A stretch of DNA of 36,625 nucleotides from a virus. Below the pieces are notes generated by a model that had not been told where the DNA came from, did not search any database, and saw nothing but the letters and a program-made list of their open reading frames with translations. Location: IMG/VR virus record IMGVR_UViG_3300030333_001165, positions 2,125-38,749 of that record; one strand, 5' to 3'. This document shows positions 3,207 to 16,042 of this stretch, one piece after another (the first letter of the stretch is position 1; each line of letters begins with the position of its first letter). The position numbers and the translations under genes were made by a program.

Positions 3207-3227
3207 CTAGGGGTCTAGTACCCCTAG
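3207..3227. terminator. Hairpin between convergent holin and endolysin genes
   Basis: CTAGGGG (3207-3213) pairs perfectly with CCCCTAG (3221-3227) around a 7-base loop. It lies exactly between the convergent ends of the holin and endolysin and overlaps the endolysin stop codon. The following T-run on the plus strand is short (ATTTT after five bases) and there is none on the minus strand, so it is a weak or bidirectional terminator, or an RNA-stabilising hairpin. Confidence 0.5.
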
Positions 3228-3679
3228 ACTATTTTAGCCATCTCAGAGGCCAAATTTTCAGCCCTTTTGGGTGTCTGTTTAGCCCAACGACTATCCAACA
3301 TTTGCTTACTCGCCTCTAAATAGTCCTTCATAGCAATAGCTTTGAGCATTTTTTTGAACTTTCCTACACCAGCTGGGCCTAATTGGAACACCATTTCTGT
3401 CAAAATAGACAGAACTCTAGGGTTCATTCCACTAATATCATGCTCGTATAGTTTTTCAGCTGCTCTTGCTGCTGCATTAAAATCTACTTTAAACTGTTTT
3501 TCTAATACTTCTTTAGGGTATTTCTTATCATCTACCCAACCTTCATCCTCAAAACATCTATGGCCATAGCCAATGGTACGAAATCCTTCACTACATTTGT
3601 ATACGGTATTTCGGTATCCTTCGTGTTTTTTAATACGTTCTTGTGTTTTTTCAATTAAGTTTGTTTCCATGAGTAACAT
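3224..3679 (-). CDS. Endolysin, T4-type lysozyme (GH24)
   Basis: A 151-residue muramidase that cuts the glycan backbone of peptidoglycan. The active site is near the N-terminus: HEGYR with catalytic Glu20, then YKCSEGFRTIGYGH with Cys29 where T4 lysozyme has Asp20, and Thr35. The spacing Glu-8-Cys-5-Thr matches the Asp/Cys variant of this family. The C-terminal lobe has LTEMVFQLGPAGVGKF and SRWAKQTPKRAENLASEM, typical of the fold. There is no signal peptide, consistent with holin-dependent release. ATG at 3670 (residue 4) is an alternative start; 3679 is preferred because GGAG lies about 10 bases upstream. It overlaps the upstream gene by 29 bases. Confidence 0.93.
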   Translation of the reverse strand: MLLMETNLIEKTQERIKKHEGYRNTVYKCSEGFRTIGYGHRCFEDEGWVDDKKYPKEVLEKQFKVDFNAAARAAEKLYEHDISGMNPRVLSILTEMVFQLGPAGVGKFKKMLKAIAMKDYLEASKQMLDSRWAKQTPKRAENLASEMAKIV

Positions 3680-3923
3680 ACCTGTCTTTCTCCAATTCAG
3701 CTAATGCATATTGCAGTATTTTTTCTGTCAATATAGCTTGATTAAACTCAGTTGACAAGTTTATTGCAGCTGAAATGAGAGCTATTTGTGTTTGTGTTAT
3801 ACCATTTAACAAGATGAACTCTCCATTAATGAAGTCATGTACTCTTGTCATGGTACGCTCTACATCCTGTATTGTTACTCCTGTGCCTTTTAATTCATCA
3901 TCAAACATAAGAGAACTATACAA
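3651..3923 (-). CDS. Hypothetical protein upstream of the endolysin
   Basis: A 90-residue protein, mostly helical in character, with no cysteine, no membrane segment and no motif I recognise. The central ITQTQIALISAAINLSTEFN is amphipathic. The final 29 bases overlap the endolysin start, so the two are likely co-translated and expressed late. Upstream lies the hairpin cluster at 3945-4069, which separates it from the SSB gene, so it may have its own transcript or a processed 5' end. Function unknown. Confidence 0.7.
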   Translation of the reverse strand: MYSSLMFDDELKGTGVTIQDVERTMTRVHDFINGEFILLNGITQTQIALISAAINLSTEFNQAILTEKILQYALAELEKDRYVTHGNKLN

Positions 3924-3944
3924 TAAGAATTAAAATTTCATATT

Positions 3945-4069
3945 CACATAAGGAGTGGTTAGAGCCTGTGGCCACCCCACTCCCTATGCTTACTAGCAAG
4001 GAGATAAGGTCATGGAGGTAACCTTATCTTCTATAAACCTAGACTCCAGAGAAAGGAGTAAGCCAGAGC
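3945..4069. other. Non-coding hairpin cluster between SSB and the endolysin unit
   Basis: Three hairpins fill this gap. (a) GGAGTGG 3952-3958 pairs with CCACTCC 3977-3983, with an inner GCC 3964-3966 / GGC 3970-3972. On the minus strand the outer stem extends to 9 bp using one G-U pair. (b) A perfect 9-bp stem AGATAAGGT 4002-4010 / ACCTTATCT 4021-4029 with a 10-base loop. (c) ACTCC 4043-4047 / GGAGT 4055-4059. None has a U-run, so these are not ordinary terminators. Hairpin (a) belongs to the GGGAGTA family seen again at 8221, 8549 and 8678. Confidence 0.65.
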
Positions 4070-4471
4070 CTAGAATGGCACATCAATATTCTGGGAGGAA
4101 GCTGATGCGCCTGCTGCACTAGACTGAGGTTGTTTAGAATCATTCTTAACAATACGAATAATTCCCTCATATCCAGCACAAACTATTTCTGTACGAAATC
4201 TTTTTTGTCCTTCGACTTCGTACTCTCGGTATTCTAAAGCACCTTGTACAAATAGTGTTGTACCTTTCTTAGCATATTTTTCTAATGATTCAACTAACGC
4301 TGGTTGAAACACGACAATATTATGCCATTGAGTTTTTTCTTGGTACTCGTCACCGACTTTAACTTTTTTATTGGTAGCTAATCCAAGATTACAAAACTTA
4401 TTTCCTGTTTTTGTTACTCTTACTTCTGGGTCGCTTCCCAGTCTTCCTATTAATATTACTTGATTTATCAT
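4070..4471 (-). CDS. ssb: Single-stranded DNA-binding protein (SSB)
   Basis: A 133-residue protein. It opens with MINQVILIGRLGSDPEVRVTKTGNKFCNLGLATN, the OB-fold start of bacterial-type SSBs. Strands around TQWHNIVVFQPALVESLEKYAKKGTTLFVQGAL and the Tyr/Glu-rich REYEVEGQKRFRTEI follow. A disordered Ser/Ala/Gln linker leads to the C-terminal tip NIDVPF, the acidic-hydrophobic tail that recruits partner proteins. It protects single strands during recombination-dependent replication, working with the annealing protein and exonuclease encoded just upstream in the same operon. Confidence 0.96.
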   Translation of the reverse strand: MINQVILIGRLGSDPEVRVTKTGNKFCNLGLATNKKVKVGDEYQEKTQWHNIVVFQPALVESLEKYAKKGTTLFVQGALEYREYEVEGQKRFRTEIVCAGYEGIIRIVKNDSKQPQSSAAGASASSQNIDVPF

Positions 4472-4601
4472 CTTTACACTCCGTGTCTTGTAATATTGTT
4501 TCTATGTCTACCCTCATGGTAGGCCATAAATAATCTAGCTCGTAGCATAGATTAATCCATCTTTCATACGTTTTTTGTTTTTCTTTTTCCTTTTCTTCCA
4601 T
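4398..4601 (-). CDS. Small charged hypothetical protein overlapping the SSB start
   Basis: 67 residues from ATG at 4601 (a TTG at 4613 is possible). The N-terminus MEEKEKEKQKTYERW is highly charged, then INLCYELDYLWPTMRVDIET looks like a folded helical core, and the tail is Lys/Arg-rich. The last 74 bases overlap the SSB gene in another frame, and the first 67 overlap the preceding small ORF. The core reads like protein, but the basic tail inside ssb may be a by-product of frame. Function unknown, moderate doubt that the full length is real. Confidence 0.45.
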   Translation of the reverse strand: MEEKEKEKQKTYERWINLCYELDYLWPTMRVDIETILQDTECKDDKSSNINRKTGKRPRSKSNKNRK

Positions 4602-4699
4602 GGTTTCATCCAATCTAGTTTTGGGCCATGATAAATAGCTTTATACTTATTACCTTTGTAATCATAATCCCAATACCACTGCCAGATATATTTACTCAT
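4535..4699 (-). CDS. 54-residue aromatic/basic small protein
   Basis: Starts M-S-K-Y-I-W-Q-W-Y-W-D-Y-D-Y-K-G and ends in a Lys/Arg-rich tail. The ATG overlaps the stop of the annealing-protein gene (ATGAGTAA), a typical coupling junction for this genome. The aromatic N-terminal half looks like a real small protein. The basic half overlaps the next ORF in a second frame. Nothing indicates function. Confidence 0.45.
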   Translation of the reverse strand: MSKYIWQWYWDYDYKGNKYKAIYHGPKLDWMKPWKKRKKKNKKRMKDGLIYATS

Positions 4700-5189
4700 T
4701 TCTATCGACAACTTTAAGTTTAGATTTATTTGCTAGACCTTCAGCAATTTCTTTCTTCAGGTTCTCAACATACTTACTGTTATCATGCATACCCAGAAAG
4801 ACATCTGCACTTAATCCTAAATGACTGAACGCTTTTGTCATAGCATCTGTCATAGCTTTCTTTGGAGCCTCATCATCTAATGCTCCTGTTTTTCTATACA
4901 GTTTTTGAACTGAACATACTGGGCCATAATAATCCCAATCATGATTTTTTTCTACTGCTACTGATACTTCAGCAGTTACTAAAGCAGTTTGGGTATTTTC
5001 AGTACCATGATATTTATAATTAACTACATAACTCCAACCTATACCTACTGGCCCAAACACTTCAGTCATCTTCATTATTTGCGACATAGGATCAATCGTT
5101 GTTATCTCACCAAAACCTTTATTAATTTTTTTGGTAAAGCGTGGATCAGTTTTTTTAACTTGATCCCAAATATATTTTTTATCTTTCAT
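4692..5189 (-). CDS. ERF/Rad52-type single-strand annealing protein
   Basis: 165 residues from ATG at 5189. This start is chosen over the one at 5201 because GGAGG lies 6 bases before it. The N-terminal half, with MTEVFGPVGIGWSYVVNYKY, and the central strand TALVTAEVSVAVE match the Rad52/Sak/ERF annealing fold. The segment DEAPKKAMTDAMTKAFSHLG followed by LSADVFLGMHDNSKY is the characteristic helical end of these proteins. It would load on single strands made by the YqaJ-type exonuclease encoded upstream and pair them with homologous DNA, with SSB encoded downstream. It overlaps the winged-helix gene by 4 bases. Confidence 0.85.
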   Translation of the reverse strand: MKDKKYIWDQVKKTDPRFTKKINKGFGEITTIDPMSQIMKMTEVFGPVGIGWSYVVNYKYHGTENTQTALVTAEVSVAVEKNHDWDYYGPVCSVQKLYRKTGALDDEAPKKAMTDAMTKAFSHLGLSADVFLGMHDNSKYVENLKKEIAEGLANKSKLKVVDRNE

Positions 5190-5488
5190 ACAATCCTCCA
5201 AACGGTTGCTAGTCTACCACTAGAATTTTTTCTTTTTAAATCTGTTTCGACTATTTTTTTCATTAATTTTAATTCAGTAAATCTTGGTCTTACACTCAAG
5301 ATACTGAGGTTTAATAGATCAGCTACTTCATCAGTAGTTGCTCCATAATCTTTTTTATTTTTTATAATTCCTAATGCTCTATTTCTAATAGTTTCAGCTT
5401 TAGGTTTTATTGCTATAGCAGCATCTTTACTCGTTCCCTGTTTTTTCCAACTCGGAGAGTACGGATATTGTGACGTTGCCTTTGCCAT
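5186..5488 (-). CDS. Winged-helix DNA-binding protein
   Basis: 100 residues. A flexible N-terminus is followed by GATTDEVADLLNLSILSVRPRF (about residues 48-70, helix-turn-helix) and a wing with KRKNSSGRLATVWRIV at the end. This pattern of a recognition helix followed by 'R.NSSGR.ATVW' is common in small phage proteins encoded in recombination operons. It may act as a regulator or replication accessory. Its first 62 bases overlap the end of the exonuclease gene. Confidence 0.8.
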   Translation of the reverse strand: MAKATSQYPYSPSWKKQGTSKDAAIAIKPKAETIRNRALGIIKNKKDYGATTDEVADLLNLSILSVRPRFTELKLMKKIVETDLKRKNSSGRLATVWRIV

Positions 5489-6119
5489 TGTATTGCTCCT
5501 TTCTAAAGTTATCCCAATCCATATGATCAGGTGGTTCTGTATTATTTTCTAGCATATGTAAGAACATCAATTCTGCTTTTAACAAGCTCCATTGAAAATC
5601 TTTATCTTCTGCTATATGCAATTCTTCCCATTTCATGTTGCCATAAAACACTGATAATATTGCATTATTTAATTCAGTAACTAACATATAATGCTGCATT
5701 TGCGGATAATATTTTTCAAATAATTTATCTGCTTTCATAAATGCGTTTGTATGTTTAGCATCCCAAATACTTAATTGATCAGCTTTGGAATCGTAAGCTA
5801 ATCCATCCAAACTACCTACTAAATTTTCATGACTTTTTGATTGAACATAAACTGGGTCAGTAACTTCTAAATCAGTTTGTTTTTTATACCACTCTCTATT
5901 AAAGGCTTCGGTATATATTCCCATCTGTACTGGTAATACACCAGATAAATCTTCTCTGTCTTTAATACCTTTTTTCTCGTAGTATAAATCTTTCCAATCA
6001 CCAGCAACTAATCGTGCTGCATCAGTTCCACTTAGTGTCGTTTCACTTGAATGTTTTGTTTCTCTTATATGAAAATACGTTTCCTTTAGAGCTGAGTTTA
6101 TATTTTTCTTTTTTGGCAT
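5427..6119 (-). CDS. YqaJ-like PD-(D/E)XK exonuclease
   Basis: 230 residues. Nuclease motifs appear in order: MGIYTEAFNREW (Glu71), LVGSLDGLAYD (Asp105), IWDAKH (Asp120-x-Lys122) and KYYPQMQHYML (Gln motif), as in YqaJ/lambda-exonuclease-type recombinases. Such enzymes resect duplex ends 5' to 3' and hand the strand to an annealing protein, here the ERF/Rad52-type protein two genes downstream. The start is fixed by AGGAGGAAA immediately before ATG. It is somewhat shorter than lambda-type enzymes in general layout but all catalytic positions are present. Confidence 0.88.
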   Translation of the reverse strand: MPKKKNINSALKETYFHIRETKHSSETTLSGTDAARLVAGDWKDLYYEKKGIKDREDLSGVLPVQMGIYTEAFNREWYKKQTDLEVTDPVYVQSKSHENLVGSLDGLAYDSKADQLSIWDAKHTNAFMKADKLFEKYYPQMQHYMLVTELNNAILSVFYGNMKWEELHIAEDKDFQWSLLKAELMFLHMLENNTEPPDHMDWDNFRKEQYNGKGNVTISVLSELEKTGNE

Positions 6120-6330
6120 TTTCCTCCTTGCGCATAGCTTTGGTTATTTCGTTTAATTGTTCATAGGGAATTTCATTCTTTTGAAGTTGTTCATAAAAAA
6201 TTTTTCTGTGTTCAGGATTAGAAAATTTATTATGCATGAACATATAGATTTTATCTCTATACCATTGTTTTCTTTTAATGGGATCAGATAAATCAGGTTT
6301 AATTGTTTTTCTTCGGTATATACTATTCAT
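6043..6330 (-). CDS. Hypothetical basic protein
   Basis: 95 residues rich in Lys, Arg and aromatic residues. A helical middle part reads KQWYRDKIYMFMHNKFSN then KIFYEQLQKNEIPYEQLNEI. The last 77 bases overlap the exonuclease gene in another frame and its start overlaps the DUF3310 gene by 8 bases. No motif is recognised. A DNA- or RNA-binding role would fit the charge, but this is only a guess. Confidence 0.65.
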   Translation of the reverse strand: MNSIYRRKTIKPDLSDPIKRKQWYRDKIYMFMHNKFSNPEHRKIFYEQLQKNEIPYEQLNEITKAMRKEENAKKEKYKLSSKGNVFSYKRNKTFK

Positions 6331-6553
6331 AATGTTTACTCATTAAGAGGTCTACATAATGAACTATTTTATCTAAATCTTGTTCTTTACCTTTATCTTT
6401 ATATCGACATATATATTTAATTATATTTCCTTCGCAAAATCCTAAATTATTTTCTAGTATAAATGTTATAGGTTGTATCTTAAAATTTTTATAATGATCT
6501 CCTCCGACTTGTCTTTCGGTAGGATCAGGATGTTTGTTTAAATGATGTGTCAT
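6323..6553 (-). CDS. DUF3310-family protein (nucleotide-kinase-associated domain)
   Basis: 76 residues. Carries the family signature VGGDHYKNFKIQPITFILEN then GFCEGNIIKYICRYKDKGKEQDLDKI. DUF3310 domains occur alone in many phages and as part of the T7 gp1.7 nucleotide kinase, so a link to nucleotide metabolism is established knowledge for relatives. A kinase activity for this short stand-alone form is not. It sits among recombination genes and overlaps both neighbours by a few bases. Confidence 0.88.
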   Translation of the reverse strand: MTHHLNKHPDPTERQVGGDHYKNFKIQPITFILENNLGFCEGNIIKYICRYKDKGKEQDLDKIVHYVDLLMSKHYE

Positions 6554-6741
6554 TTTATCTCCTTACATTTACCACAGTACCAATATAATCCGTTGCTTAA
6601 TATTAAATCATTAGCAACGCAGTTACACTTTGCTGGTCTGTTTTTTTCTTTGTATTTTTCTTTTTCTGGTGGAGTTAAGGAATCGAAATATGTTCCTACT
6701 TTTATTCTTGGCTGTCTTTTTCTTCTAGTTTTATTGTGCAT
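6550..6741 (-). CDS. Small zinc-ribbon protein
   Basis: 63 residues. The basic N-terminus is followed by CNC (about residues 39-41) and CGKC (56-59), making four cysteines in two knuckles (CxC...CxxC) around GLYWY, the usual form of a tiny zinc ribbon. It probably binds nucleic acid or a protein partner. The ATGA overlap with the DUF3310 start and the overlap with the XRE gene upstream place it inside the same transcript as the repressor. Confidence 0.75.
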   Translation of the reverse strand: MHNKTRRKRQPRIKVGTYFDSLTPPEKEKYKEKNRPAKCNCVANDLILSNGLYWYCGKCKEIK

Positions 6742-6935
6742 CCTAAACTATCTGCCCAACAACAAAATAAAAATCCACTTGGCCTCCTTATACCAGCTTC
6801 CCATTTAGACACTAAACCTTTAGCTACACCCAATATATCATCCATATCTATTTGAGTATACCCAAGTTTGTGTCTTTTTTCGACAAACTGTGTAATGATT
6901 TCGGTATGAAATTTTTCACCTAATGCTTTAGCCAT
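6702..6935 (-). CDS. XRE/Cro-type helix-turn-helix regulator
   Basis: 77 residues. LGYTQIDMDDILGVAKGLVSKWEAGIRRPSG (about 24-54) is a classical XRE helix-turn-helix, with the recognition helix at KGLVSKWEAG. It has its own sigma70-type promoter whose -10 is only about 6 bases before the ATG, and two inverted repeats lie across that promoter (6933-6976). It is therefore probably an autorepressor controlling itself and the downstream recombination operon. There is no integrase in the window, so a lysogeny function is not indicated. Confidence 0.85.
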   Translation of the reverse strand: MAKALGEKFHTEIITQFVEKRHKLGYTQIDMDDILGVAKGLVSKWEAGIRRPSGFLFCCWADSLGCTIKLEEKDSQE

Positions 6936-6976
6936 ACATTATTGTATGACTAAAATATCGTAACTGTCAAGTTACG
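6933..6976 (-). promoter_or_regulatory. Promoter and twin operators of the XRE regulator
   Basis: On the minus strand TTGACA (6970-6965) and TACAAT (6946-6941) are separated by 18 bases, a near-consensus sigma70 promoter. Two perfect inverted repeats overlap it. CGTAACT-gtca-AGTTACG (6959-6976, 7-bp arms) covers the -35. CATACA-ttat-TGTATG (6933-6948, 6-bp arms) covers the -10 and the start codon. Centres are 27 bp apart. The predicted start site falls on or next to the ATG at 6935, so the mRNA may be leaderless, as for lambda cI from PRM. Confidence 0.75.
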
Positions 6977-7724
6977 CCTTTGGTTTATCTTTCACAAACA
7001 TCACCTTATTATGTTCTCCCCAGTTATAGATAGATTCAATAACTTCTACATAATCTGAGGCATTAGTACAATGTACCAGCTTCCTGCTGTTCATTTTGAG
7101 CTTTCTTAACCATTTAGTTTTGTTAAATTGTTTTTGATACATTACTCTTAACATAGCGAATAAGAATGTTCTTCTATTCCATCCTTCATAGTAATCTTTC
7201 ATTTTTCTAAGATATGTAGCAGTTGCTTTTGAATGTTCTAAATCAATTATTTCTAATCTACCTTCTTTGAAGGATTCTGTTGCAGCTTTTGAGTAGCCAC
7301 CATAGATTAGCTCTAATGTAACGAAGTTTGGCATTTGAAAGCTGCGTTTAAACCAATCAAATACATGATAGGGTTTTGTATGATAGTCTTTAGGATGATT
7401 TAATTTCTCTACTTCCATATGAGAATGTAGATAATCAGCGAAATCCCAATTCTTAGCATTTCTATTTATCTGTCTGACATCACCCAGAGTAACATCACCA
7501 TCAGCTGTCACATAGTACAGAGGCAGTCCTAACTCCTTAAGGACATGGTATCTGTGTTGTCCGTCAATGATTTCATTCTTCTCATTGACTATGATAGGTG
7601 TTGGAACGTACTTCTCCTCAATAGATTTTCTCAATGCAAGCATATGATTTCTATTGATGGGTCTATTTCCATCAAGAAATTTGAATTGAGAGTAGTCCTT
7701 TGTTACTTTAACCTGTTTTTTCAT
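6972..7724 (-). CDS. ParB/sulfiredoxin-fold (ParB-N-like) protein
   Basis: 250 residues. The N-terminal 85 residues form the ParB nuclease-type domain: FKFLDGNRPINRNHMLALRK, VPTPIIVNEKNEIIDGQHR and YHVLKELGLPLYYV, where IIDGQHR is the nucleotide-binding motif. The C-terminal 160 residues are helical with YEGWNRRTFLFAMLRVMYQK and no motif I know. Phage proteins of this type are annotated as ParB-like nucleases or DNA-binding factors. Partitioning is unlikely without a ParA. It lies upstream of the repressor, and its stop codon is inside the repressor operator. Confidence 0.85.
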   Translation of the reverse strand: MKKQVKVTKDYSQFKFLDGNRPINRNHMLALRKSIEEKYVPTPIIVNEKNEIIDGQHRYHVLKELGLPLYYVTADGDVTLGDVRQINRNAKNWDFADYLHSHMEVEKLNHPKDYHTKPYHVFDWFKRSFQMPNFVTLELIYGGYSKAATESFKEGRLEIIDLEHSKATATYLRKMKDYYEGWNRRTFLFAMLRVMYQKQFNKTKWLRKLKMNSRKLVHCTNASDYVEVIESIYNWGEHNKVMFVKDKPKA

Positions 7725-7978
7725 TGTCTGTCCTCTATTTTATGTTCTAGATCAGTTATTTGACTTTTTAATGTACTAATAGACGTTTTTAAGTCTAAAT
7801 TGACATCATTCCTGATCTGTTTGCAAAATGCTCTTATAAGATGGAATACATCCATATCTCTTACGTTTATATATTCAGCTTTGCTGTTAGAATAATATGT
7901 TTCTTCGATATTCCACATATCTGTTGGAACATTTATTCCTAATCTGTGTAGTCCACTTAATAATTCATGTGTTTGCAT
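7721..7978 (-). CDS. Hypothetical protein with C-terminal coiled coil
   Basis: 85 residues. Residues 1-45 appear folded (LLSGLHRLGINVPTDMWNIE). Residues 55-85, SISTLKSQITDLEHKIEDRQ at the end, show heptad spacing suggesting a dimeric coiled coil. The start is supported by GGAG 5-6 bases upstream (AATGGAGTAATT before ATG). It overlaps the ParB-like gene by 4 bases, so the two are probably co-translated. Upstream is the long structured gene-free region 7985-8370, which would form its 5' leader. Confidence 0.7.
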   Translation of the reverse strand: MQTHELLSGLHRLGINVPTDMWNIEETYYSNSKAEYINVRDMDVFHLIRAFCKQIRNDVNLDLKTSISTLKSQITDLEHKIEDRQ

Positions 7979-7984
7979 AATTAC

Positions 7985-8370
7985 TCCATTAAATTAAAAT
8001 CTTGCGAGGGATACCCTACCGTCTATCCCCTCAGTTCTGTATCTTACGTTGGGAGAGCAAGATTATATTGTTTCTTCACTTGCAATATATATTAGTGCTA
8101 GCATTGAAGAAAATGAGGGAGGCGTGAGCTGAGCTGACTAGCCTCCCCAAAGTAAATAGAGCTACTAATATATACAGGTGCAAACACCCAGCGTTTCACA
8201 GCTATTTACTTAACCATTGGGGGAGTAGTTAGGGCTTTGCCCATAATATACCTACTCCCTGAAGTGGATAAACCATTAGTATCTTTTTACAAAGACGTTT
8301 CCTATTCAATATATTTGGAAACTCAATCACACTTCCCTATGATACTTTGCATAGCTACTCAAATTGGGAA
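7985..8370. ncRNA. Candidate structured RNA region with interlocking helices
   Basis: No convincing ORF, but dense complementarity. Helices: 7999-8006/8058-8065 (8 bp) enclosing 8007-8013/8026-8033; 8072-8079/8106-8113 (8 bp); 8087-8100/8161-8175 (14 bp, one bulge); 8118-8124/8142-8148 (7 bp); 8151-8160/8203-8212 (10 bp); 8078-8081-type GNRA-like hairpin actually at 8178-8181/8186-8189; 8221-8228/8252-8259 with inner 8232-8235/8239-8242. Further left-over stems GTTTCC/GGAAAC and CTATG/CATAG lie in 8296-8355. Three helices cross each other, so they form pseudoknots or alternative states. Likely strand is minus, by neighbouring genes; no wobble evidence settles it. Confidence 0.6.
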
Positions 8371-8526
8371 TTATTTTTTACCCACTTCTTCTATACTTAA
8401 GTCATCAATCTCGTAATCTAAATCTTCTAACCATGTAATGATTTCAGATTTGATATGTGTTGTGTCAAACCAACTATCATCATCTTCTTTTTTTCTTTTA
8501 AGTTTAAAATTAACATTCCATTCCAT
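8371..8526 (-). CDS. 51-residue acidic hypothetical protein
   Basis: Starts MEWNVNFKLKRKKEDDDSWF and continues with a helical, acidic part containing HIKSEIITWLEDLDYEIDDL. GAGG stands 5 bases before the ATG. It lies alone between two structured gaps, giving it a clear protein-like composition against non-coding surroundings. Small proteins of the same plan (strand, Lys-rich turn, then WLEDL helix) are what one expects in marine phage early regions, but I cannot name a family. Function unknown. Confidence 0.65.
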   Translation of the reverse strand: MEWNVNFKLKRKKEDDDSWFDTTHIKSEIITWLEDLDYEIDDLSIEEVGKK

Positions 8527-8544
8527 AGTTACCTCATCAATCCA

Positions 8545-8820
8545 TTGGGGGAGTAAATTTCCCTCATCAAAAGGTCATACTTACTCCCTAATTCTACTAT
8601 ATAATTTATGTTAGTCGCCATTATATGGGCTTGTGAGGAGCTACCTTCGTTTTTAGTAGAATGTTCTTTAAAACTGTAATGGGAAGTAATGGGTAGTATC
8701 CTGTTCCATATGCTTTGACCTATTGCCATTACTCCCCCATTGAAGATGGATTTGTTTCTAAGATTTTCCACCATCTTCTATTCAGAAGGTATTTATGTGA
8801 CGCTTGACCACACTTCTGAA
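8545..8820. other. Non-coding array of three hairpins downstream of the DUF932-like gene
   Basis: Stem 1: GGGAGTAA 8549-8556 / TTACTCCC 8581-8588. Stem 2: AATGGG 8678-8683 + AGTAATGG 8685-8692 pair with CCATTACT 8726-8733 + CCCATT 8736-8741. Stem 3: TTCAGAAG 8781-8788 / CTTCTGAA 8813-8820, with inner TGTG 8796-8799 / CACA 8809-8812, right after the DUF932-like stop codon. An open frame (8529-8774, minus) crosses the first two, but its ends are dictated by the hairpins and it looks unlike protein. No U-runs follow, so terminator function is unlikely. Confidence 0.6.
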
Positions 8821-8822
8821 AC

Positions 8823-9722
8823 TCAAAAATTAGATGCTATTGCAGCTGGTGCAAAGCCTCTTAAATTAGTTTTTGGTTTGTTAATCAAATTCAACCAATA
8901 TTCTGATTCAACCATCTTACTTATCTTAGTTGATCTATCTCTAATTTTATTCATCTTATAACCTCTACCTTTTGGGTGTGATGCCCAATCTGTAGCTGTT
9001 TGATAAACTGAATATAAATTACTTCCTAATCTTGATTGATATTTATTCCATAATTCACCAAGCTGCTTCATATATAAATCAGAGTATCCATTGGTATATA
9101 ATTTCTTAGGTTTCTTTGCTATTGTTCTTCTGAATAATGTTTGAACATCATCATCATTAACACTAACTCCTGCAACCTGTTCTAGAAATTCAGGATATTC
9201 TTGAAAGTTTTGAATAGCTGTTGTTATATCTGTACCAGTCATTTGTGATTTTCGTATCCAGTTCTTTTTACTTAATGCTTGTATTTTCCATGCAGAAGTA
9301 AATTGTCCATTCATACAAATGATACATAGTGGCCCAAATATCCATTGTTCCGCCCAACCTAAATCATAGCTTGACCAAGACCACATGGTTAATTGGTATT
9401 TTTCATTTCTATTATTAATTTTAAAATCATATGTTTCTTCAGGAAATCTCATAATCCTAGAGAATCTTTTACCTTGCAAATGCAACTTATCTTCTACGAT
9501 AATTTGTTTTCCATATTGGCTCACTCCTTCGCCAATCATATTTGCAAATTCTTCATATGTTCTCATATTATCAGCACTCTTTTTACTTACTACTGATAAA
9601 TAATTACCTTCTGTATCATACAATGCTACTCTATCAGGTATTTCCCAACTGGTATTATCAAAGTATGTAATCATTGGTCTTATATCTAACTGAACATTAC
9701 AGCTTGGACTTATTTGATACAT
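8823..9722 (-). CDS. DUF932-like phage protein
   Basis: 299 residues. The overall plan (an N-terminal beta domain, FGPLCIICMNGQFTSAW in the middle, and a C-terminal NLYSVYQTATDWASHPKGRG followed by RDRSTKISKMVESEYWLNLI) matches the DUF932 or 'phage/plasmid-like' family, whose members are abundant and often early-expressed. Biochemical function is unknown; an antirestriction or DNA-metabolism role is sometimes assumed. The start has GGAG 8 bases upstream (AAGGAGAAAAAAA before ATG). It is the largest gene of the minus-strand arm and is followed by hairpins rather than another gene. Confidence 0.75.
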   Translation of the reverse strand: MYQISPSCNVQLDIRPMITYFDNTSWEIPDRVALYDTEGNYLSVVSKKSADNMRTYEEFANMIGEGVSQYGKQIIVEDKLHLQGKRFSRIMRFPEETYDFKINNRNEKYQLTMWSWSSYDLGWAEQWIFGPLCIICMNGQFTSAWKIQALSKKNWIRKSQMTGTDITTAIQNFQEYPEFLEQVAGVSVNDDDVQTLFRRTIAKKPKKLYTNGYSDLYMKQLGELWNKYQSRLGSNLYSVYQTATDWASHPKGRGYKMNKIRDRSTKISKMVESEYWLNLINKPKTNLRGFAPAAIASNF

Positions 9723-9825
9723 TTTTTTTCTCCTTATCTAGTTTTAAATCAGGTTTATAAACATTAACTTTACGCTTATGTTTCTTATAAACAGCTTTGA
9801 ATCGTCTTTTCTTTTCTTCATTCAT
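9697..9825 (-). CDS. 42-residue lysine-rich peptide
   Basis: MNEEKKRRFKAVYKKHKRKV followed by a short tail. It is strongly basic and likely binds nucleic acid or is disordered. The ATG lies in an ATGAATGA overlap with the preceding small gene, giving coupled translation. The last 26 bases overlap the DUF932-like gene start, and that gene's ribosome binding site lies inside this ORF. Too short for a family assignment. Confidence 0.5.
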   Translation of the reverse strand: MNEEKKRRFKAVYKKHKRKVNVYKPDLKLDKEKKNVSNKSKL

Positions 9826-9979
9826 ATCTGTTATACCTTTGTTTTAATATTTTTGATAAACGTTCCCAAATAATTCTATTGAGAATGTCTTGTGGTTTAT
9901 ATGGTTCTCTTAGAGTAATTTTATCTAGTTTCATTTTACAAGATAATATTCTCGCCAACCAACTTAACTTATGAACCAT
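9818..9979 (-). CDS. 53-residue basic hypothetical protein
   Basis: MVHKLSWLARILSCKMKLDK then PYKPQDILNRIIWERLSKIL and a basic tail. Two amphipathic helices are plausible. Its stop overlaps the next start (ATGAATGA) and its start overlaps the possible 22-residue peptide upstream. No clear ribosome binding site is seen, so it may depend on translational coupling. Function unknown. Confidence 0.5.
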   Translation of the reverse strand: MVHKLSWLARILSCKMKLDKITLREPYKPQDILNRIIWERLSKILKQRYNRYE

Positions 9980-10037
9980 AGTATAATACCATGGTTATTC
10001 CTATTAAGATTATAATTGGTACTATTGCCCAATACAT
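9969..10037 (-). CDS. Possible 22-residue hydrophobic membrane peptide
   Basis: M-Y-W-A-I-V-P-I-I-I-L-I-G-I-T-M-V-L-Y-Y-G-S: almost entirely hydrophobic, one transmembrane helix. It overlaps the end of the upstream 66-residue gene by 16 bases and the start of the downstream gene by 11. There is no strong ribosome binding site, so support rests on composition and on its place within a run of similar micro-genes. Tentative. Confidence 0.3.
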   Translation of the reverse strand: MYWAIVPIIILIGITMVLYYGS

Positions 10038-10222
10038 TTTACATTTTCCATGAGTTTATTATCATCTACATAGTCGTCTGGTGGACTTGGATATTCTTGA
10101 GGGTTATTTACTTCTTCCCACATATCTTCATAATGTTCACCATGTCTTTTAAGAAAATCTGCTTTAGTCATTGTTGCAGCATCTTCTTCTAATTCCATTA
10201 ACCAGTCTTTTGTTTTGCTCAT
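10022..10222 (-). CDS. Small acidic hypothetical protein
   Basis: 66 residues, acidic: MSKTKDWLMELEEDAATMTK, a helical FLKRHGEHYEDMWEEVNNP, then a Pro/Asp-rich tail. It shares one base with the preceding gene at 10222. The composition suggests a soluble protein, possibly a DNA mimic or a protein-binding inhibitor such as small early T7 proteins, but that is guesswork from charge alone. Confidence 0.65.
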   Translation of the reverse strand: MSKTKDWLMELEEDAATMTKADFLKRHGEHYEDMWEEVNNPQEYPSPPDDYVDDNKLMENVKCIGQ

Positions 10223-10431
10223 TATTCCACCTCAATGATTACTTCGTTACTTTTACCCTTAGTGGTATTATATTTAATTTTAATAGAGGTAATTTTTGAA
10301 AAATCCTCTGAGCGTATCTCGGACTCCTCTAATCCGCTTGGTCTCCATGTTTTTGCCTTAATGACAATTTTACTATTAGGGGATATAATAGATAACTTAT
10401 TTAAGGTGTCGGTTAATTGATTAATATTCAT
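10222..10431 (-). CDS. Small hypothetical protein
   Basis: 69 residues. MNINQLTDTLNKLSIISPNS, a central KIVIKAKTWRPSG strand, and a second strand pair KITSIKIKYN...EVIIEVE, suggesting a compact alpha/beta fold. The start lies in an ATGA overlap with the 26-residue membrane peptide upstream, and it abuts the next gene. No known motif. Confidence 0.65.
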   Translation of the reverse strand: MNINQLTDTLNKLSIISPNSKIVIKAKTWRPSGLEESEIRSEDFSKITSIKIKYNTTKGKSNEVIIEVE

Positions 10432-10508
10432 AATGCTGCTCCTATTAAGGTTATGGTGGTGAAACAGATACTAAAAGATATAATAAATCCTAGTACGAAT
10501 GATTTCAT
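10428..10508 (-). CDS. 26-residue membrane peptide
   Basis: M-K-S-F-V-L-G-F-I-I-S-F-S-I-C-F-T-T-I-T-L-I-G-A-A-L, a single hydrophobic helix after one lysine. It is well supported for its size: a consensus AGGAGG site stands 6 bases before the ATG (within the previous gene), and both ends are 4-base ATGA overlaps with flanking genes. Could act on the inner membrane during early infection; no function is known. Confidence 0.55.
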   Translation of the reverse strand: MKSFVLGFIISFSICFTTITLIGAAL

Positions 10509-10720
10509 TTTTTCCTCCTTGGTTTTTTATTAATTTTCCTACTAATACCTTGTGATAAGAAGATTATTCCTATCCATATTGGTGCTGATACTACACTTAT
10601 AACTAATGTTGGGTTTAATCCTAATGTTAGTAATGATAGTACTACCATGCTCCCTAATATGAGATAAATGATGATAAAACTTCCTATACTTTGAGCTTTC
10701 TCTTGGTATGCTTTTCTCAT
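10505..10720 (-). CDS. Small two-helix membrane protein
   Basis: 71 residues. Basic N-terminus, then transmembrane segments at about 12-34 (GSFIIIYLILGSMVVLSLLT) and 39-60 (TLVISVVSAPIWIGIIFLSQ), and a very basic C-terminus (RKINKKPRRKK), giving both ends in the cytoplasm by the positive-inside rule. AAAGGAG before the ATG supports the start. It is the first gene after the terminator at 10798-10829, so it probably has its own promoter or a leader in 10734-10771. Confidence 0.75.
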   Translation of the reverse strand: MRKAYQEKAQSIGSFIIIYLILGSMVVLSLLTLGLNPTLVISVVSAPIWIGIIFLSQGISRKINKKPRRKK

Positions 10721-10733
10721 TATTTACTCCTTT

Positions 10734-10771
10734 GCATTCGGTATCGTGGCATCCTCACGCCTTCGGTATGC
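10734..10771 (-). promoter_or_regulatory. Hairpin/direct-repeat leader of the two-helix membrane gene
   Basis: Outer GCAT 10734-10737 / ATGC 10768-10771 and inner CGTG 10745-10748 / CACG 10756-10759 pair around a 7-base loop. The octamer TTCGGTAT occurs twice (10737-10744 and 10762-10769). It sits between the terminator and the ribosome binding site of the next minus-strand gene, a logical place for an operator or a folded 5' leader. GC is clearly higher than in flanking DNA. Confidence 0.35.
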
Positions 10772-10797
10772 TCACTTTTCCTGATGCGTTTTTTTTT

Positions 10798-10829
10798 AAA
10801 AAAGGGCAGTTATTTTTTAACCACCCTTT
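10798..10829 (-). terminator. Intrinsic terminator after the 168-residue gene
   Basis: Minus strand: AAAGGGTGGTTA (10829-10818) pairs with TAACTGCCCTTT (10812-10801), 12 bp including two G-U pairs, with a 5-base A loop. The stem runs directly into TTTTTT on the minus strand. The G-U pairs exist only in the minus-strand transcript, which matches the direction of the gene ending at 10846. Confidence 0.8.
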
Positions 10830-10845
10830 AGTTTTAATGAATATT

Positions 10846-11352
10846 CTAAACTCTAGTTTCCAGAGTTTTTTCAAGATTAAGAATATAATCTGACATATCT
10901 TTGTCAAAAGTTTTCTTCTTAACCACACTTGAATTTGCGTCACCAGTATCTTTACTAAATGAAACCCATGTAGATTTCGTGTGATTATAATATTCTTCTG
11001 ATAACGAATTGATTATTGGATTAACAAAGTTAATTACTATCATATTAGAAATCTTTTTATCTAATTCTTTAAGCATATCCACTTTGTTTAAATCTGTTTC
11101 AGGCATTCTATCAAGATTCTTTAATTTACTCTGAATACCCATATTCCATTTTTTTCTATTTTCTTTTTGATAATGGAATGTTTGTGTTAAACCAGATAAT
11201 ATATAATCAAATGATTTTTCTATATCGTCATCTTGATTAGTGACTTCCTTGATTATATTTTTAACTGCTTTTCTCATAATATCTGCAACTTTTTCGCCTA
11301 ATACATGAGAATTTGATATTCTACTTTGTTGTTCTGGTGTTAGCTTTGTCAT
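10846..11352 (-). CDS. Hypothetical helical protein
   Basis: 168 residues, mostly alpha-helical and charged. It starts MTKLTPEQQSRISNSHVLGE and contains FDYILSGLTQTFHYQKENRK and KVDMLKELDKKISNMIVINF. No catalytic motif or membrane segment. It ends a transcription unit that runs from 12158, being followed by a good terminator. Its start overlaps the preceding gene by 32 bases. Function unknown; a role in early takeover is possible from position only. Confidence 0.7.
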   Translation of the reverse strand: MTKLTPEQQSRISNSHVLGEKVADIMRKAVKNIIKEVTNQDDDIEKSFDYILSGLTQTFHYQKENRKKWNMGIQSKLKNLDRMPETDLNKVDMLKELDKKISNMIVINFVNPIINSLSEEYYNHTKSTWVSFSKDTGDANSSVVKKKTFDKDMSDYILNLEKTLETRV

Positions 11353-11500
11353 TTTTATTTCCTTTCTTTTTTCTACTTATTTTTATATCGTAAGGCGATT
11401 TTTTGACTACTGTATCAACTATCTTTCCTCCATTTTCTTTTAACCACTCTATATCATCTGATAAGATATTAGAGATTAATTTTATCGATTTCACAATCAT
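11321..11500 (-). CDS. 59-residue basic hypothetical protein
   Basis: MIVKSIKLISNILSDDIEWL continues through KENGGKIVDTVVKKSPYDIK to a Lys-rich tail. GGAAGG lies about 7 bases before the ATG, supporting the start at 11500. The last 32 bases overlap the next gene in another frame. The segment EWLKENGGKIVDTVV looks like a real folded core. No family recognised. Confidence 0.55.
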   Translation of the reverse strand: MIVKSIKLISNILSDDIEWLKENGGKIVDTVVKKSPYDIKISRKKKGNKNDKANTRTTK

Positions 11501-11630
11501 GTTTTACCTTCCTTTCTATCAGTTCATAATGATTAATTCTATATTCAGACCATAAATACAGAGTCCATGTACCTAGAAACGATAAAATTAATACTAGATA
11601 CATAAATGCTATAACAATTAATGTTTTCAT
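11469..11630 (-). CDS. 53-residue single-pass membrane protein
   Basis: MKTLIVIAFMYLVLILSFLG begins a hydrophobic helix to about residue 29, followed by a charged tail (EYRINHYELIERKVKHDCEI). The start is an ATGA overlap with the gene upstream, and the tail overlaps the next gene by 32 bases. It could be a small inner-membrane anchored factor; function unknown. Confidence 0.55.
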   Translation of the reverse strand: MKTLIVIAFMYLVLILSFLGTWTLYLWSEYRINHYELIERKVKHDCEIDKINL

Positions 11631-11818
11631 CTTAAATCCTCCATTATATCTATGTTAAATTCTAATAATATATTACTTGCTAAAGCTGATACCATTTCAG
11701 TATTTCCAACACTTTGAGCTTGTTCTACATTAACCATAATATCTCTAAATCTATTATTATTATTATAAAGATATTCATATGTCGTATATGACTTATCAAT
11801 CGGTTTTTTATTTTCCAT
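11627..11818 (-). CDS. Small hypothetical protein
   Basis: 63 residues. MENKKPIDKSYTTYEYLYNN then a helical FRDIMVNVEQAQSVGNTEMV and an acidic end. A ribosome binding site AAGGAG is present before the ATG (AAAGGAGTATAAT). It is the second gene of the leftward unit beginning at 12158. No motif recognised. Confidence 0.65.
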   Translation of the reverse strand: MENKKPIDKSYTTYEYLYNNNNRFRDIMVNVEQAQSVGNTEMVSALASNILLEFNIDIMEDLR

Positions 11819-11819
11819 A

Positions 11820-12158
11820 TTATACTCCTTTATTTAAATAGTTTTCCATATCACATTCACATTCGATAAGATAGCAAGCCTCACAATATACATCAGGATT
11901 ACTATAAAACTCGATTTGGTCAGTGAATCTATTTATTTCTTTAAATATGAATAATCTTAATTCAGGGTCAGATTCGTTTTTTAATCTATCCTTTAATACT
12001 CTGATTACATTCTCTAATCTTTGAATTTTAAACCAGTTTTCATATTTATATTTCTTTAATTCTAAACTGCAATCTAATATCCATTTAGTTCTATTAAAGA
12101 TTTTCTTAATAAATAATTCTATTTTATATATTAATATTATTAAATTAACTTTATACAT
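11820..12158 (-). CDS. Hypothetical protein, first gene of the leftward unit
   Basis: 112 residues from ATG at 12158. This start is preferred to 12173 because AAAGGA stands 6 bases before it. The N-terminus MYKVNLIILIYKIELFIKKI is hydrophobic and may associate with the membrane. The middle is Lys/Arg-rich and helical (RLENVIRVLKDRLKNESD). The C-terminus has three cysteines in YCEACYLIECECDMENY, a possible metal site. It is the gene nearest the divergent non-coding region, so likely the first expressed on the minus strand. Confidence 0.65.
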   Translation of the reverse strand: MYKVNLIILIYKIELFIKKIFNRTKWILDCSLELKKYKYENWFKIQRLENVIRVLKDRLKNESDPELRLFIFKEINRFTDQIEFYSNPDVYCEACYLIECECDMENYLNKGV

Positions 12159-12186
12159 TGTATATCCTTTCATTTATCCATCAGAA

Positions 12187-12642
12187 CATCATGTTTTGAT
12201 TTATATTACGCAACGATTTGCAAAAGCGATAATAATTCATGTCAACCGAAATCGGCCGTCACGGAGTTCCAAAACTTGTTTTGGTACGGAGTAGGGATTC
12301 CTTTAGGAATCGAAACCGATTGGCAGGTTTACTTGGATTATCGTCTTTTGCTAAAATCGGCGGAATAAAAAACATGATGATGATGATTTTCCTGAGAGTG
12401 TTGGCTTAAGCGATCCTTCCTGTGTTCGCCATTTATGGTGAGTTTATGACAAACTGTCGCAGTCTTGGGTTCTGACTACAAGGATTAACGAATAAGTGTC
12501 AGGTTCCTAAGACGAGCAGAACACAGGATATGGTGAGCCTTAAGCCATGCTAATACCATATATTGATGTGCGGCAATCCGTTCACATTAGGTCTTGACAA
12601 CGATATTTGAGAGTCTATTCGTAAGTAGCTGTTAGGAATAGA
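12187..12642 (+). ncRNA. Candidate large structured RNA, three domains
   Basis: No ORF fits, and GC jumps from 8/60 (12121-12180) to 30/60 (12241-12300) by hand count. Domain 1: 12187-12197/12369-12379 (11 bp); 12214-12233 with 12337-12343, 12345-12351 and 12354-12359 (20 bp, two bulges); 12250-12255/12316-12321; hairpins 12269-12284 and 12296-12311. Domain 2: 12403-12410/12539-12546; 12418-12427/12519-12528 (10 bp) closing hairpins at 12428-12439, 12448-12458 and 12462-12513. Domain 3: 12564-12589 and 12614-12642. G-U pairs in three hairpins (12428-12439, 12462-12513, 12564-12589) would be A-C mismatches on the other strand, so the plus strand is favoured. Confidence 0.7.
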
Positions 12643-12647
12643 ATATT

Positions 12648-13016
12648 ATGAGTTCAAAAGGATTGACGCATAAACAAAAAGCATTAGTTGATACACTCGT
12701 AACCACAGGTTGCAGTATTAAAGAAGCGTCACAAAAGGCAGGATATGCAAAGGGTGAAGCAGGTAGAGTAGTAGCATCTAGAACGCTACGATTACCACAG
12801 GTACAGAGGTACATGATGGAACAGGTAGCTACCGTTATGGGAACTGGAGCTATTAAGGCTACACAAAAGCTCATCCAGTTAAGCGATAACGCTAGAAGTG
12901 AGTACGTTCAACTAGAGGCAAGCAAAGACATACTAGATAGGGTAGGACTACGAACACCAGAGAAGGTAAGCACTGAAGTAGTAGGTGATATAAAAGTTAG
13001 TATCGATTTGGGTTAG
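12648..13016 (+). CDS. terS: Terminase small subunit (TerS)
   Basis: 122 residues. Opens KGLTHKQKALVDTLVTTGCS then IKEASQKAGYAKGEAGRVVA, the helix-turn-helix that recognises the packaging start in Terminase_2-type small subunits. LRLPQVQRYMMEQVATVMG and a helical oligomerisation part follow, and the protein ends in beta strands (EVVGDIKVSIDLG). It is the first rightward gene, starting a few bases after the structured RNA. TerL is encoded about 0.9 kb downstream, separated by four small genes. It would form a ring that delivers concatemer DNA to TerL. Confidence 0.8.
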   Translation: MSSKGLTHKQKALVDTLVTTGCSIKEASQKAGYAKGEAGRVVASRTLRLPQVQRYMMEQVATVMGTGAIKATQKLIQLSDNARSEYVQLEASKDILDRVGLRTPEKVSTEVVGDIKVSIDLG

Positions 13017-13921: not shown

Positions 13922-15450
13922 TGCCTGAATTATCGTATAAACCTGATGGGTCAACGCTAAAAAATTTTTTAAAATCCGACCATTTTTTCAGAGGAATAAG
14001 GGGGCCTGTTGGCTCTGGAAAATCTGTTGCTTGTTGTATAGAAATTTTTAGAAGAGCTTTGCAGCAACAAAAGAATCAAAATGGCGTAAGGAAAAGCAGA
14101 TGGGCGGTCATTAGAAACACGAACCCACAGTTAAAGACCACCACTATTAAGACATGGTTAGATTGGTTTCCTGAACAGGAATGGGGTCACTTTAGATGGT
14201 CAGTTCCCTATACGCATTATATTAAAAAAGGGGATATAGATTGTGAGGTCATCTTTTTAGCACTTGATAGACCAGAAGATATTAAAAAGCTGTTATCCCT
14301 AGAATTAACAGGGGTATGGGTTAATGAAGCAAGGGAAGTTCCTAAAAGTATTATAGATGCGTGTACCATGCGTGTAGGAAGATTTCCTAGCATGAGGGAT
14401 GGTGGAGCATCTTGGTATGGGGTTTTTTGTGATACCAACGCTCCTGAAGAAGATCATTGGTGGCCAATTATGGCTGGTGATGTACCTGTACCAGACCATA
14501 TTAGCCGAGAAGAAGCCTTGATGTTGGTTAAACCTGATAACTGGAGTTTCTATACCCAACCATCAGGGATGGATGAGAAAAGAGAAAAGGATGGTACGTT
14601 AACAGGATATACCGATTCCAAAAATGCCGAGAATAAAAACAATCTTACGCCTAAATATTATAATAATATTATTAAGGGTAAAACAAAAGGATGGATAGAT
14701 GTCTATGTTTTAAATAAATTAGGTTCTATAGAAGAAGGCAAACCAGTATACCCTAGTTTCAAACAAGAAGTCCATATCGCTAAAGAGAACTTAATGCCAA
14801 TCAACCACTTGCCTATTTATGTTGGAATTGATTTTGGATTAACACCAGCAGCAGTCTTTGGTCAAAAGAATGTGTTAGGAAAATGGCACATCCTTCATGA
14901 GCTGGTGTGCTTTGATATGGGGGCAGTACGATTTGCTGAATTATTAAAATCAGACATTACAAGATTATTTAGAGGTATAGATGTTGAGATATATGGTGAC
15001 CCAGCTGGAGATTTTCGTGCTCAGACTGATGAAAAAACGCCATTCCAAATATTACGCAATTCTGGCTTACGAGCATCTCCAGCTCCGTCAAATGATATTT
15101 CACTACGAATTGAGTCCGTTGAAAACGCACTTAACAGGATGGTGGATGGACAAGCAGCGTTTTTGTTGGATAACAGGTGTTTAAATCTTAAAAAAGGATT
15201 TAATGGCGGTTATCACTATAGACGAATACAGACATCAGGTGATAGATATGATGAGAAACCTTTTAAAAACAGATACTCTCATGTTCATGATGCGTTGCAA
15301 TATATGATGATGGGTGCTGGAGAAGGTAGAGCATTAACCTATGGGAAAGGAAATGCTAAACCCACAGTGGTCAATACCAAATGGAATATATTTGACCAGC
15401 AGAAACCACGAAAGAGGAAGTCATGGAATATATTCAATATCAATGGATAG
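13921..15450 (+). CDS. terL: Terminase large subunit (TerL)
   Basis: 509 residues, GTG start. ATPase domain: Walker A GPVGSGKS (28-35), adenine/coupling region WAVIRNTNP, Walker B-like GVWVNEARE (131-139). Nuclease domain of RNase H fold: VGIDFGLTPAA (Asp304), VEIYGDPAGDF (Asp360) and SHVHDALQYMMM (Asp457). The motor pumps DNA into the prohead through the portal and cuts the concatemer. Length and motif order are complete. Its 3' end overlaps the next gene by 28 bases. Confidence 0.97.
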   Translation: MPELSYKPDGSTLKNFLKSDHFFRGIRGPVGSGKSVACCIEIFRRALQQQKNQNGVRKSRWAVIRNTNPQLKTTTIKTWLDWFPEQEWGHFRWSVPYTHYIKKGDIDCEVIFLALDRPEDIKKLLSLELTGVWVNEAREVPKSIIDACTMRVGRFPSMRDGGASWYGVFCDTNAPEEDHWWPIMAGDVPVPDHISREEALMLVKPDNWSFYTQPSGMDEKREKDGTLTGYTDSKNAENKNNLTPKYYNNIIKGKTKGWIDVYVLNKLGSIEEGKPVYPSFKQEVHIAKENLMPINHLPIYVGIDFGLTPAAVFGQKNVLGKWHILHELVCFDMGAVRFAELLKSDITRLFRGIDVEIYGDPAGDFRAQTDEKTPFQILRNSGLRASPAPSNDISLRIESVENALNRMVDGQAAFLLDNRCLNLKKGFNGGYHYRRIQTSGDRYDEKPFKNRYSHVHDALQYMMMGAGEGRALTYGKGNAKPTVVNTKWNIFDQQKPRKRKSWNIFNING

Positions 15451-15815
15451 TCTATTTTTACAGTCCACAAAAAGTAAAATGGTTTCAAAAATGGCGAAAA
15501 AAAGGCTTTCATCATTGTGGAGCAATTCGCTATGATCCTGAGAAAAAAACATGGATTAATTTGGAAGTAATAAATTCGCAAGTATTATTAGAAAATCTAG
15601 ATAGGGAAGAAGTAGAAAAAATGATAAAAGGAATAAAACGATTAAATGGAACAACAGTTCAACTGACAAGAAGAATACTGACTAAAAACCCATCTATATT
15701 TGAATGGTGGATTAAAGAGCATAGCTGTGTTAGTTTTGTGCAAAGATTGATAGGAATGAAAAGATGGTTTATATTTACTCCTTATCAGTTATATTGTGCG
15801 TTGAAAAAATTATAA
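15423..15815 (+). CDS. Hypothetical protein, possible permuted papain-fold (NlpC/P60-like) enzyme
   Basis: 130 residues with no membrane segment. The N-terminal half has KKGFHHCGAIRYDPEKKTW (histidines about 29-30). The C-terminal part has IKEHSCVSFVQRLIGMKRWF followed by TPYQLYCALKKL. A histidine first and then a cysteine in 'C(V)xFV..L', ending with 'TP..L', resembles circularly permuted papain-like peptidases or amidases. I cannot confirm the fold by eye. It lies between TerL and the portal, where a virion or lysis hydrolase would be unexpected but possible. Confidence 0.6.
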   Translation: MEYIQYQWIVYFYSPQKVKWFQKWRKKGFHHCGAIRYDPEKKTWINLEVINSQVLLENLDREEVEKMIKGIKRLNGTTVQLTRRILTKNPSIFEWWIKEHSCVSFVQRLIGMKRWFIFTPYQLYCALKKL

Positions 15816-15838
15816 ATAAAGGATTAGTGGAATAATTT

Positions 15839-16042
15839 ATGAGTTCTGTATTTGGAAGTAAGCCAAAGAAAACTGCATCAGATATATGGGCAGAGCAACA
15901 ATTAAAAAAAGAAAAAGAAGCACAGGCCCAATTAGAAAAAGACGAAGCAGCGTGGAAATTAAAATTTGGAAAAGGGTTAGTTGGCCCTCGTTCTATGTTT
16001 ACTAAAGCTGGTGGTGCTGGCTTTTACGATCCAGAGGATTAA
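15839..16042 (+). CDS. Small hypothetical protein
   Basis: 67 residues. SSVFGSKPKKTASDIWAEQQ, then a long charged helix LKKEKEAQAQLEKDEAAWKL, then a Gly-rich end GPRSMFTKAGGAGFYDPED. Extended helix plus flexible ends suggests a structural or scaffolding helper. It is located between TerL and the portal with only two bases to the next gene. Family unknown. Confidence 0.65.
   Translation: MSSVFGSKPKKTASDIWAEQQLKKEKEAQAQLEKDEAAWKLKFGKGLVGPRSMFTKAGGAGFYDPED

Follow-up and report, generated by a model that had tools for sequence, protein, structure and literature searches.

The window, by which we mean the whole 36,625-nucleotide stretch of DNA analysed here, derives from a 38,749-base IMG/VR virus record and encodes a terminase, a head-tail adaptor, a major capsid protein, a T7-like internal virion protein, a holin and an endolysin. 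Its closest isolate is Pelagibacter phage EXVC031P Hodr, accession OQ414635 (TerS 56%, TerL 66%, MCP 56%). Among the window proteins scanned, none was recognised as a DNA or RNA polymerase, a helicase or a primase. Neither of the two large virion proteins (1216 and 1226 aa) matched a polymerase: one is an internal virion protein of T7 type, and the other had no match. The genes form two divergent arms, with the region 12187-12642 between them, and the features on which our analysis draws are the following:

3224..12173, minus strand: leftward early genes, transcribed into mRNA complementary to the folded plus strand
4070-4471, minus strand: SSB gene, leftward early operon
5427-6119, minus strand: YqaJ (YqaJ/RecE-like) exonuclease gene, leftward early operon
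6972-7724, minus strand: ParB-like gene, leftward early operon
8823-9722, minus strand: DUF932 gene, leftward early operon
12187..12379, plus strand: domain I, a long imperfect hairpin with a branched apex (from DNA fold and recurrence), the proposed single-strand promoter/initiation hairpin
12187..12247, plus strand: 5' arm of domain I, pairing with 12326-12379, the proposed template for leftward RNA
12250..12318, plus strand: branched apex, with hairpins 12266-12287 (loop CTTG) and 12295-12312 (loop TTTA), closed by AATCGG/CCGATT
12326..12379, plus strand: 3' arm of domain I (from the fold), bearing the promoter P_R
12328..12333, plus strand: -35 element of P_R, TTTACT (sigma-70 promoter scoring)
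12352..12357, plus strand: -10 element of P_R, TAAAAT, extended (TGC before it), spacer 18 (sigma-70 promoter scoring)
12402..12547, plus strand: domain II, with a TGGCTTAAG/CTTAAGCCA closing stem and a branched interior (from the fold; further relatives are structured at this place as well)
12577-12548, minus strand: candidate leftward double-strand promoter, TTGCCG-18-TAGCAT
12594..12621, plus strand: late promoter of terS, TTGACA-N16-TATTCG, its -10 weak in the window (TTGACA-N16-TAYNNT at the same position in the larger cluster)
12648..13016, plus strand: terS, terminase small subunit (PHROG 2538/51, Pfam Terminase_2), the first rightward gene

The candidate leftward promoter scores highest among minus-strand promoters over the 900 nt preceding terS and could drive the early operon without any single-stranded DNA (ssDNA); it is not recurrent in relatives. 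No transcription terminator was found. In the terS-upstream regions of relatives, a motif like ATACAGTGATGTG or CATATTGATGT recurs upstream of TTGACA and is possibly a binding site; its counterpart in the window is CATATATTGATGTG, at about 12557-12570. Inside the leftward operon, a further 550 nt (7979-8528) are without an ORF of 60 aa and hold strong local hairpins (GGGGGAGTAG...CTACTCCC plus CCTCCC arms; minus-strand RNA z -1.9).

An earlier note on this DNA had described 12187-12642 as a gene-free region that folds into a three-domain plus-strand RNA of no recognised family. The region contains 0 ORFs of at least 60 aa (a minus-strand ORF, 12632-12874, overlaps its last 11 bases), and the pairings that the note had named are all present: 11 bp between 12187-12197 and 12369-12379 (100%), the bulged stem of 12214-12233 with 12337-12359, and 10 bp between 12418-12427 and 12519-12528. 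Its hand-counted GC contents were exact (50.0% in 12241-12300 and 13.3% in 12121-12180). A tRNA/tmRNA search was empty, and Rfam covariance models, including GOLLD, ROOL and IMES, gave 0 matches at both gathering and relaxed thresholds in the window and in ten relatives. The 456 nt of 12187-12642 outfolded each of their 100 dinucleotide-shuffled versions (plus-strand RNA z -5.5, minus-strand -6.0), and because both strands outfold all shuffles, the RNA z-score alone cannot choose the strand. In a phage-wide scan with RNA parameters the region ranked second of 81 scanned segments, and in a cruder scan, with four mononucleotide shuffles per segment, it lay outside the top 12. By DNA fold excess, domain I ranked first of 190 segments (-27.2 kcal/mol; mean -2.6, sd 4.6), and its z-scores were -7.6 (plus strand) and -6.3 (minus strand). 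By a simple inverted-repeat score, the hairpin ranked only eighth within the window. The third domain, at about 12566-12642, has only small hairpins, which overlap the terS promoter region.

The hairpin of domain I measures 193-221 nt, and its 3' arm carries P_R. In the DNA fold of the window, T12352 and A12353 (T-12 and A-11 of the promoter) form an unpaired bulge with paired neighbours, and this opening is one of the two bulges in the 20-bp stem of the earlier note. Read as double-stranded DNA, P_R is an ordinary promoter pointing right, toward domain II and terS. Since it points outward, its transcript would start near 12364 and omit domain I. A strong rightward promoter left of the hairpin was not found in the window or in most relatives. 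The structure and the strand of the proposed RNA are supported, whereas its unity as one single RNA is not the best-supported reading, given the outward promoter inside the stem of domain I. Domain II on its own has a z of -3.9, weaker than domain I, and could be part of a rightward RNA. Its counterparts between P_R and terS in L105, L112, L117 and L146 are elaborately branched, as in the L105 group, and conserved blocks (CCCATAGCAATAACGAG / TTGCGTATGGG and GCGACAAGGATCGTTACCCGAAGGG) follow P_R in one group. In the window and its relatives alike, the structure after P_R may represent either a leader RNA or further folded DNA.

For comparison with relatives, we fetched some 300 loci surrounding terS or terL genes related to those of the window and applied a strand-symmetric inverted-repeat score to 49 mutually dissimilar terS-upstream regions and to 214 control stretches from the same loci. 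The median score was 30.4 in the terS-upstream regions and 19.1 in the controls (p 8e-19), and 30 of the 49 regions exceeded the 95th percentile of the controls. Between groups, the pairing is kept and the sequence is not. Close DNA homologues of the element were absent from the phages and plasmids searched, with weak or partial ones only among the fetched loci. Giant hairpins, with near-continuous arms of about 100-120 bp round an apex, were present in L050, L059, L060, L062, L070, L072 and Hodr; hairpin length in the relatives and Hodr was 320-360 nt, and the Hodr hairpin had a DNA z of -15. No giant hairpin was present in the examined intergenic stretch upstream of the terminase genes of Methylophilales phage MEP301 (TerL 40%). 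In several relatives the ribosome-binding site and beginning of the leftward gene fall within the 5' arm, and the 3' arm mimics them. In Hodr (L082:3555-3915) the 3' arm is an inverted near copy of the ribosome-binding site and first codons of the leftward gene, which suggests a recent renewal of the inverted repeat. A good P_R in the 3' arm is mostly missing from the giant-hairpin class, so that this class may differ from that of the window and be a variant or something else. Separately, the starts of contigs L007, L017 and L063 coincide with the expected hairpin apex or fall close to it, as though assemblies were broken by long palindromes, and the completeness of such genomes may be underestimated.

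The position of P_R within the hairpin was examined in 22 loci, in each of which the best sigma-70 promoter of the 3' arm was picked blind to pairing. In 17 of the 22 relatives, the distance between the apex and the first base of P_R is 0-31 nt (expected 26%, p 7e-7). Across 30 hairpins folded with DNA parameters, the -35 and the spacer are mostly paired and the -10 is more open (p 0.0008 versus the -35 and 0.003 versus the spacer), with an openness that is no different from the average of the remaining arm (p 0.55, same 30 hairpins). Openness peaks from -12 to -9 and is highest at A-11, the base that sigma-70 flips out at promoter melting. Of 46 stem columns in the L103/L105 group, 33 have changed on both sides, and two apex hairpins covary. 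Covariation was taken from per-sequence folds, since a MAFFT alignment of the group put the arms one base off; pair counts from such folds lean toward pairing, and a shuffled null was therefore added. A-11 is unpaired in 11 of 14 sequences of this group, and it forms an isolated bulge in 9 of 13 (window sequence left out), versus 3% in a null with a shuffled 5' side, although the 13 sequences are mutually related and hence not independent events. The isolated bulge is confined to this one group of related sequences, and the window has a two-base opening instead.

Mismatches identify the plus strand as the folding strand. In the nine strongest hairpins, read on the plus strand, A.G outnumbers C.T (50 versus 10), G.G outnumbers C.C (12 versus 1) and G.T outnumbers A.C (50 versus 36); the last difference alone is too weak, so the other mismatch types and the loops were also used. 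C-GNA-G triloops (14/85 versus 5/129 in control regions, p 0.0019) and TTTA/TTTG loops (13/83 versus 5/141, p 0.0018) are enriched, and both kinds of loop are stable in DNA. Among 83 tetraloops there were one GNRA and one UNCG, compared with 6/17 in E. coli rRNA at a shorter stem cut-off. Drawn from a few hundred hairpins, these loop types favour DNA over RNA in a way that is suggestive rather than conclusive. A further argument for the arm acting as DNA is the promoter that it contains, and a bulge at A-11 is intelligible if RNA polymerase binds the DNA, but not if the molecule is an RNA. Domain I is thus best read as folded DNA and not as a new RNA. The earlier view of a plus-strand structure between the divergent arms is borne out, and we regard this structure as real and selected.

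This arrangement resembles a known class of elements in conjugative plasmids, for which the original Frpo work is reportedly that of Masai and Arai from 1997, cited by later papers. Passages of PMC7690428, PMC9849209 and PMC11541004 describe Frpo1 and Frpo2 of plasmid F as single-strand promoters, with a 328-bp stem-loop and -35 and -10 elements in duplex, which host RNA polymerase uses for early leading genes and for primers. We found that the F stretches ahead of ssb and DUF932 have inverted-repeat scores of 52 and 49 and form hairpins of ~317 nt on the transferred strand. In plasmid F and the phages alike, the genes that lie 5' of the hairpin have the folded strand as their template. F has an imperfect hairpin of ~320 nt with the promoter boxes within the stem, and a long stable stem-loop is likewise found in the relatives, in Hodr and in the window. 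The fold restores -35 and -10 in duplex with the -10 partly open, though not in all giant hairpins, and position -11 is also open in the best F box pair, as located by scoring. Gene content is alike as well: DUF932, ParB-family and SSB in F, and DUF932, ParB-like and SSB in the window. In Hodr, an ArdC antirestriction protein, a DnaT-domain protein and SSB lie behind the hairpin, in an operon of ArdC, DnaT-like, YqaJ and SSB genes; two of its proteins that are annotated as hypothetical (L317:13573-14457 and 15431-15955) are this ArdC protein and a protein with HTH and DnaT domains. The differences are that the phage P_R sits in the 3' arm and reads outward, whereas the best F box pair (again located by scoring) is in the 5' arm, that the window hairpin is shorter and branched at its apex, and that the carrier, which encodes terminase, capsid, holin and endolysin, is a tailed phage rather than a conjugative element that enters as ssDNA. 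A blastn search of 12187-12642 against 72,556 PLSDB plasmids gave nothing at E 0.01. Given the lack of sequence similarity, the phage carrier and the promoter in the 3' arm, our claim is that the two work alike, not that domain I is a member of the Frpo family.

Other known systems share parts of this design. The sso of rolling-circle plasmids and the complementary-strand origin of M13 are imperfect ssDNA hairpins where host sigma-70 RNA polymerase starts RNA, and an imperfect hairpin as a start for RNA polymerase on ssDNA is what we propose here. Small hairpin promoters with C-GNA-G type loops serve the virion RNA polymerase of N4, a double-stranded DNA podovirus. The likeness to the window phage lies in the hairpin promoter in a double-stranded DNA phage and in the loop type; N4 hairpins, however, are small and served by a phage polymerase, and a cognate virion polymerase was not found in the window phage. 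An N4-type hairpin promoter was accordingly rejected, as the 1216- and 1226-aa virion proteins have no polymerase match. GOLLD, ROOL and OLE RNAs are large, branched and gene-free, as is the region studied here, and GOLLD and ROOL come from phages or prophages; the region differs from them in having no Rfam match and in the evidence of domain I, which favours DNA. The comparison with sso and ssi is given in PMC7690428.

By analogy with these elements, we consider it the likeliest reading, with about an even chance, that domain I is an Frpo/ssi-like ssDNA element, at which host RNA polymerase would start the early operon, a replication primer or both. The plus strand would become single-stranded through resection by the phage exonuclease, strand displacement or rolling-circle replication, and domain I would then fold into its long hairpin. 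All three routes are assumed, as is any source of plus-strand ssDNA in a tailed phage, since tailed phages inject double-stranded DNA; we know of no ssDNA stage for these phages. In the folded strand, the 3' arm would supply the non-template strand of a sigma-70 promoter, with the -35 near the apex and the -10 toward the base, and the 5' arm would supply the template. Host RNA polymerase would bind the duplex -35 and spacer together with a pre-opened -10, and melting should be eased because the -10 is held partly open at T-12/A-11. Transcription would then proceed outward along the 5' arm and leftward into the operon of DUF932, ParB-like, recombination nuclease and SSB genes. Alternatively or in addition, the RNA may be left as a primer for complementary-strand synthesis in a phage without a recognised polymerase or primase. 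What our analysis shows directly is the hairpin and its recurrence, the covariation, the place of the promoter, the open -10, the strand asymmetry and the gene context. Plus-strand ssDNA in infection and use of the hairpin by RNA polymerase are what we infer, and with them which outcome, early mRNA or primer, would matter. A replication element was one option in the earlier note, which counts in the note's favour.

The same region may instead be an ordinary double-strand control region, in which P_R drives a rightward transcript from near 12364, domain II forms a structured leader ahead of terS or a short non-coding RNA there, and the arms are alike through binding sites common to leftward and rightward promoters. 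This explanation agrees with the presence of a good P_R in many loci, with the mirror promoters of the L103/L105 group and with the structured, partly conserved stretch after P_R, including the fold of domain II, and yet we think it unlikely. The complementarity far exceeds the length of a promoter and extends, in Hodr among others, into the beginning of the leftward gene, the spacer and the apex covary although a double-strand promoter needs neither, and the conserved A-11 bulge is left unexplained. A leftward double-strand promoter mirroring P_R was itself rejected, being weak in most loci.

A large plus-strand non-coding RNA over domains I and II, in the style of GOLLD or ROOL as the earlier note had it, appears quite improbable. 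The RNA fold score speaks for it, and the plus-strand mismatch asymmetry and the covariation are equally compatible with it; set against these are the lack of a recurrent strong rightward promoter left of the hairpin, the near absence of GNRA and UNCG loops, the missing Rfam match in the window and ten relatives, the 5' arm covering the start codon of the leftward gene in several relatives, and the open base sitting at promoter A-11. Very improbable, in our assessment, is a packaging (cos/pac) or replication-terminus DNA structure for terminase or a host nuclease, to which the promoter resemblance would be incidental. The hairpin does adjoin terS, and some contigs end near it, but the contig ends are scattered, as fits assembly breaks at a long palindrome, and near-complete contigs often run through the hairpin. 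A cos or pac site inferred from contig ends was rejected on account of this scatter, and a packaging structure explains neither the position of the promoter nor its open -10.

Returning to domain I as an ssDNA promoter, the broader proposition is that an ssDNA promoter unrelated in sequence to Frpo serves a widespread lineage of SAR11-type double-stranded DNA phages to launch the early programme or to prime replication, and this we advance tentatively, with somewhat less than even confidence. To our knowledge, ssDNA promoters of this design are not known from tailed phages, and we found no reports of such elements in pelagiphages in the open-access literature. Hodr is in culture and its element measures about 350 bp, which makes it a ready test bed. 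Moreover, the signature of a hairpin with a promoter in one arm and an open -10 could find further elements where sequence similarity fails. In conjugative plasmids, such promoters have a known role in letting the newcomer express protective genes before it becomes double-stranded. If our reading is true, the genome of these phages would have an undescribed single-stranded stage, and phages related to a cultured SAR11 phage would pass through, and exploit, a single-stranded state, which would bear on how a phage without a recognised polymerase or primase starts up.
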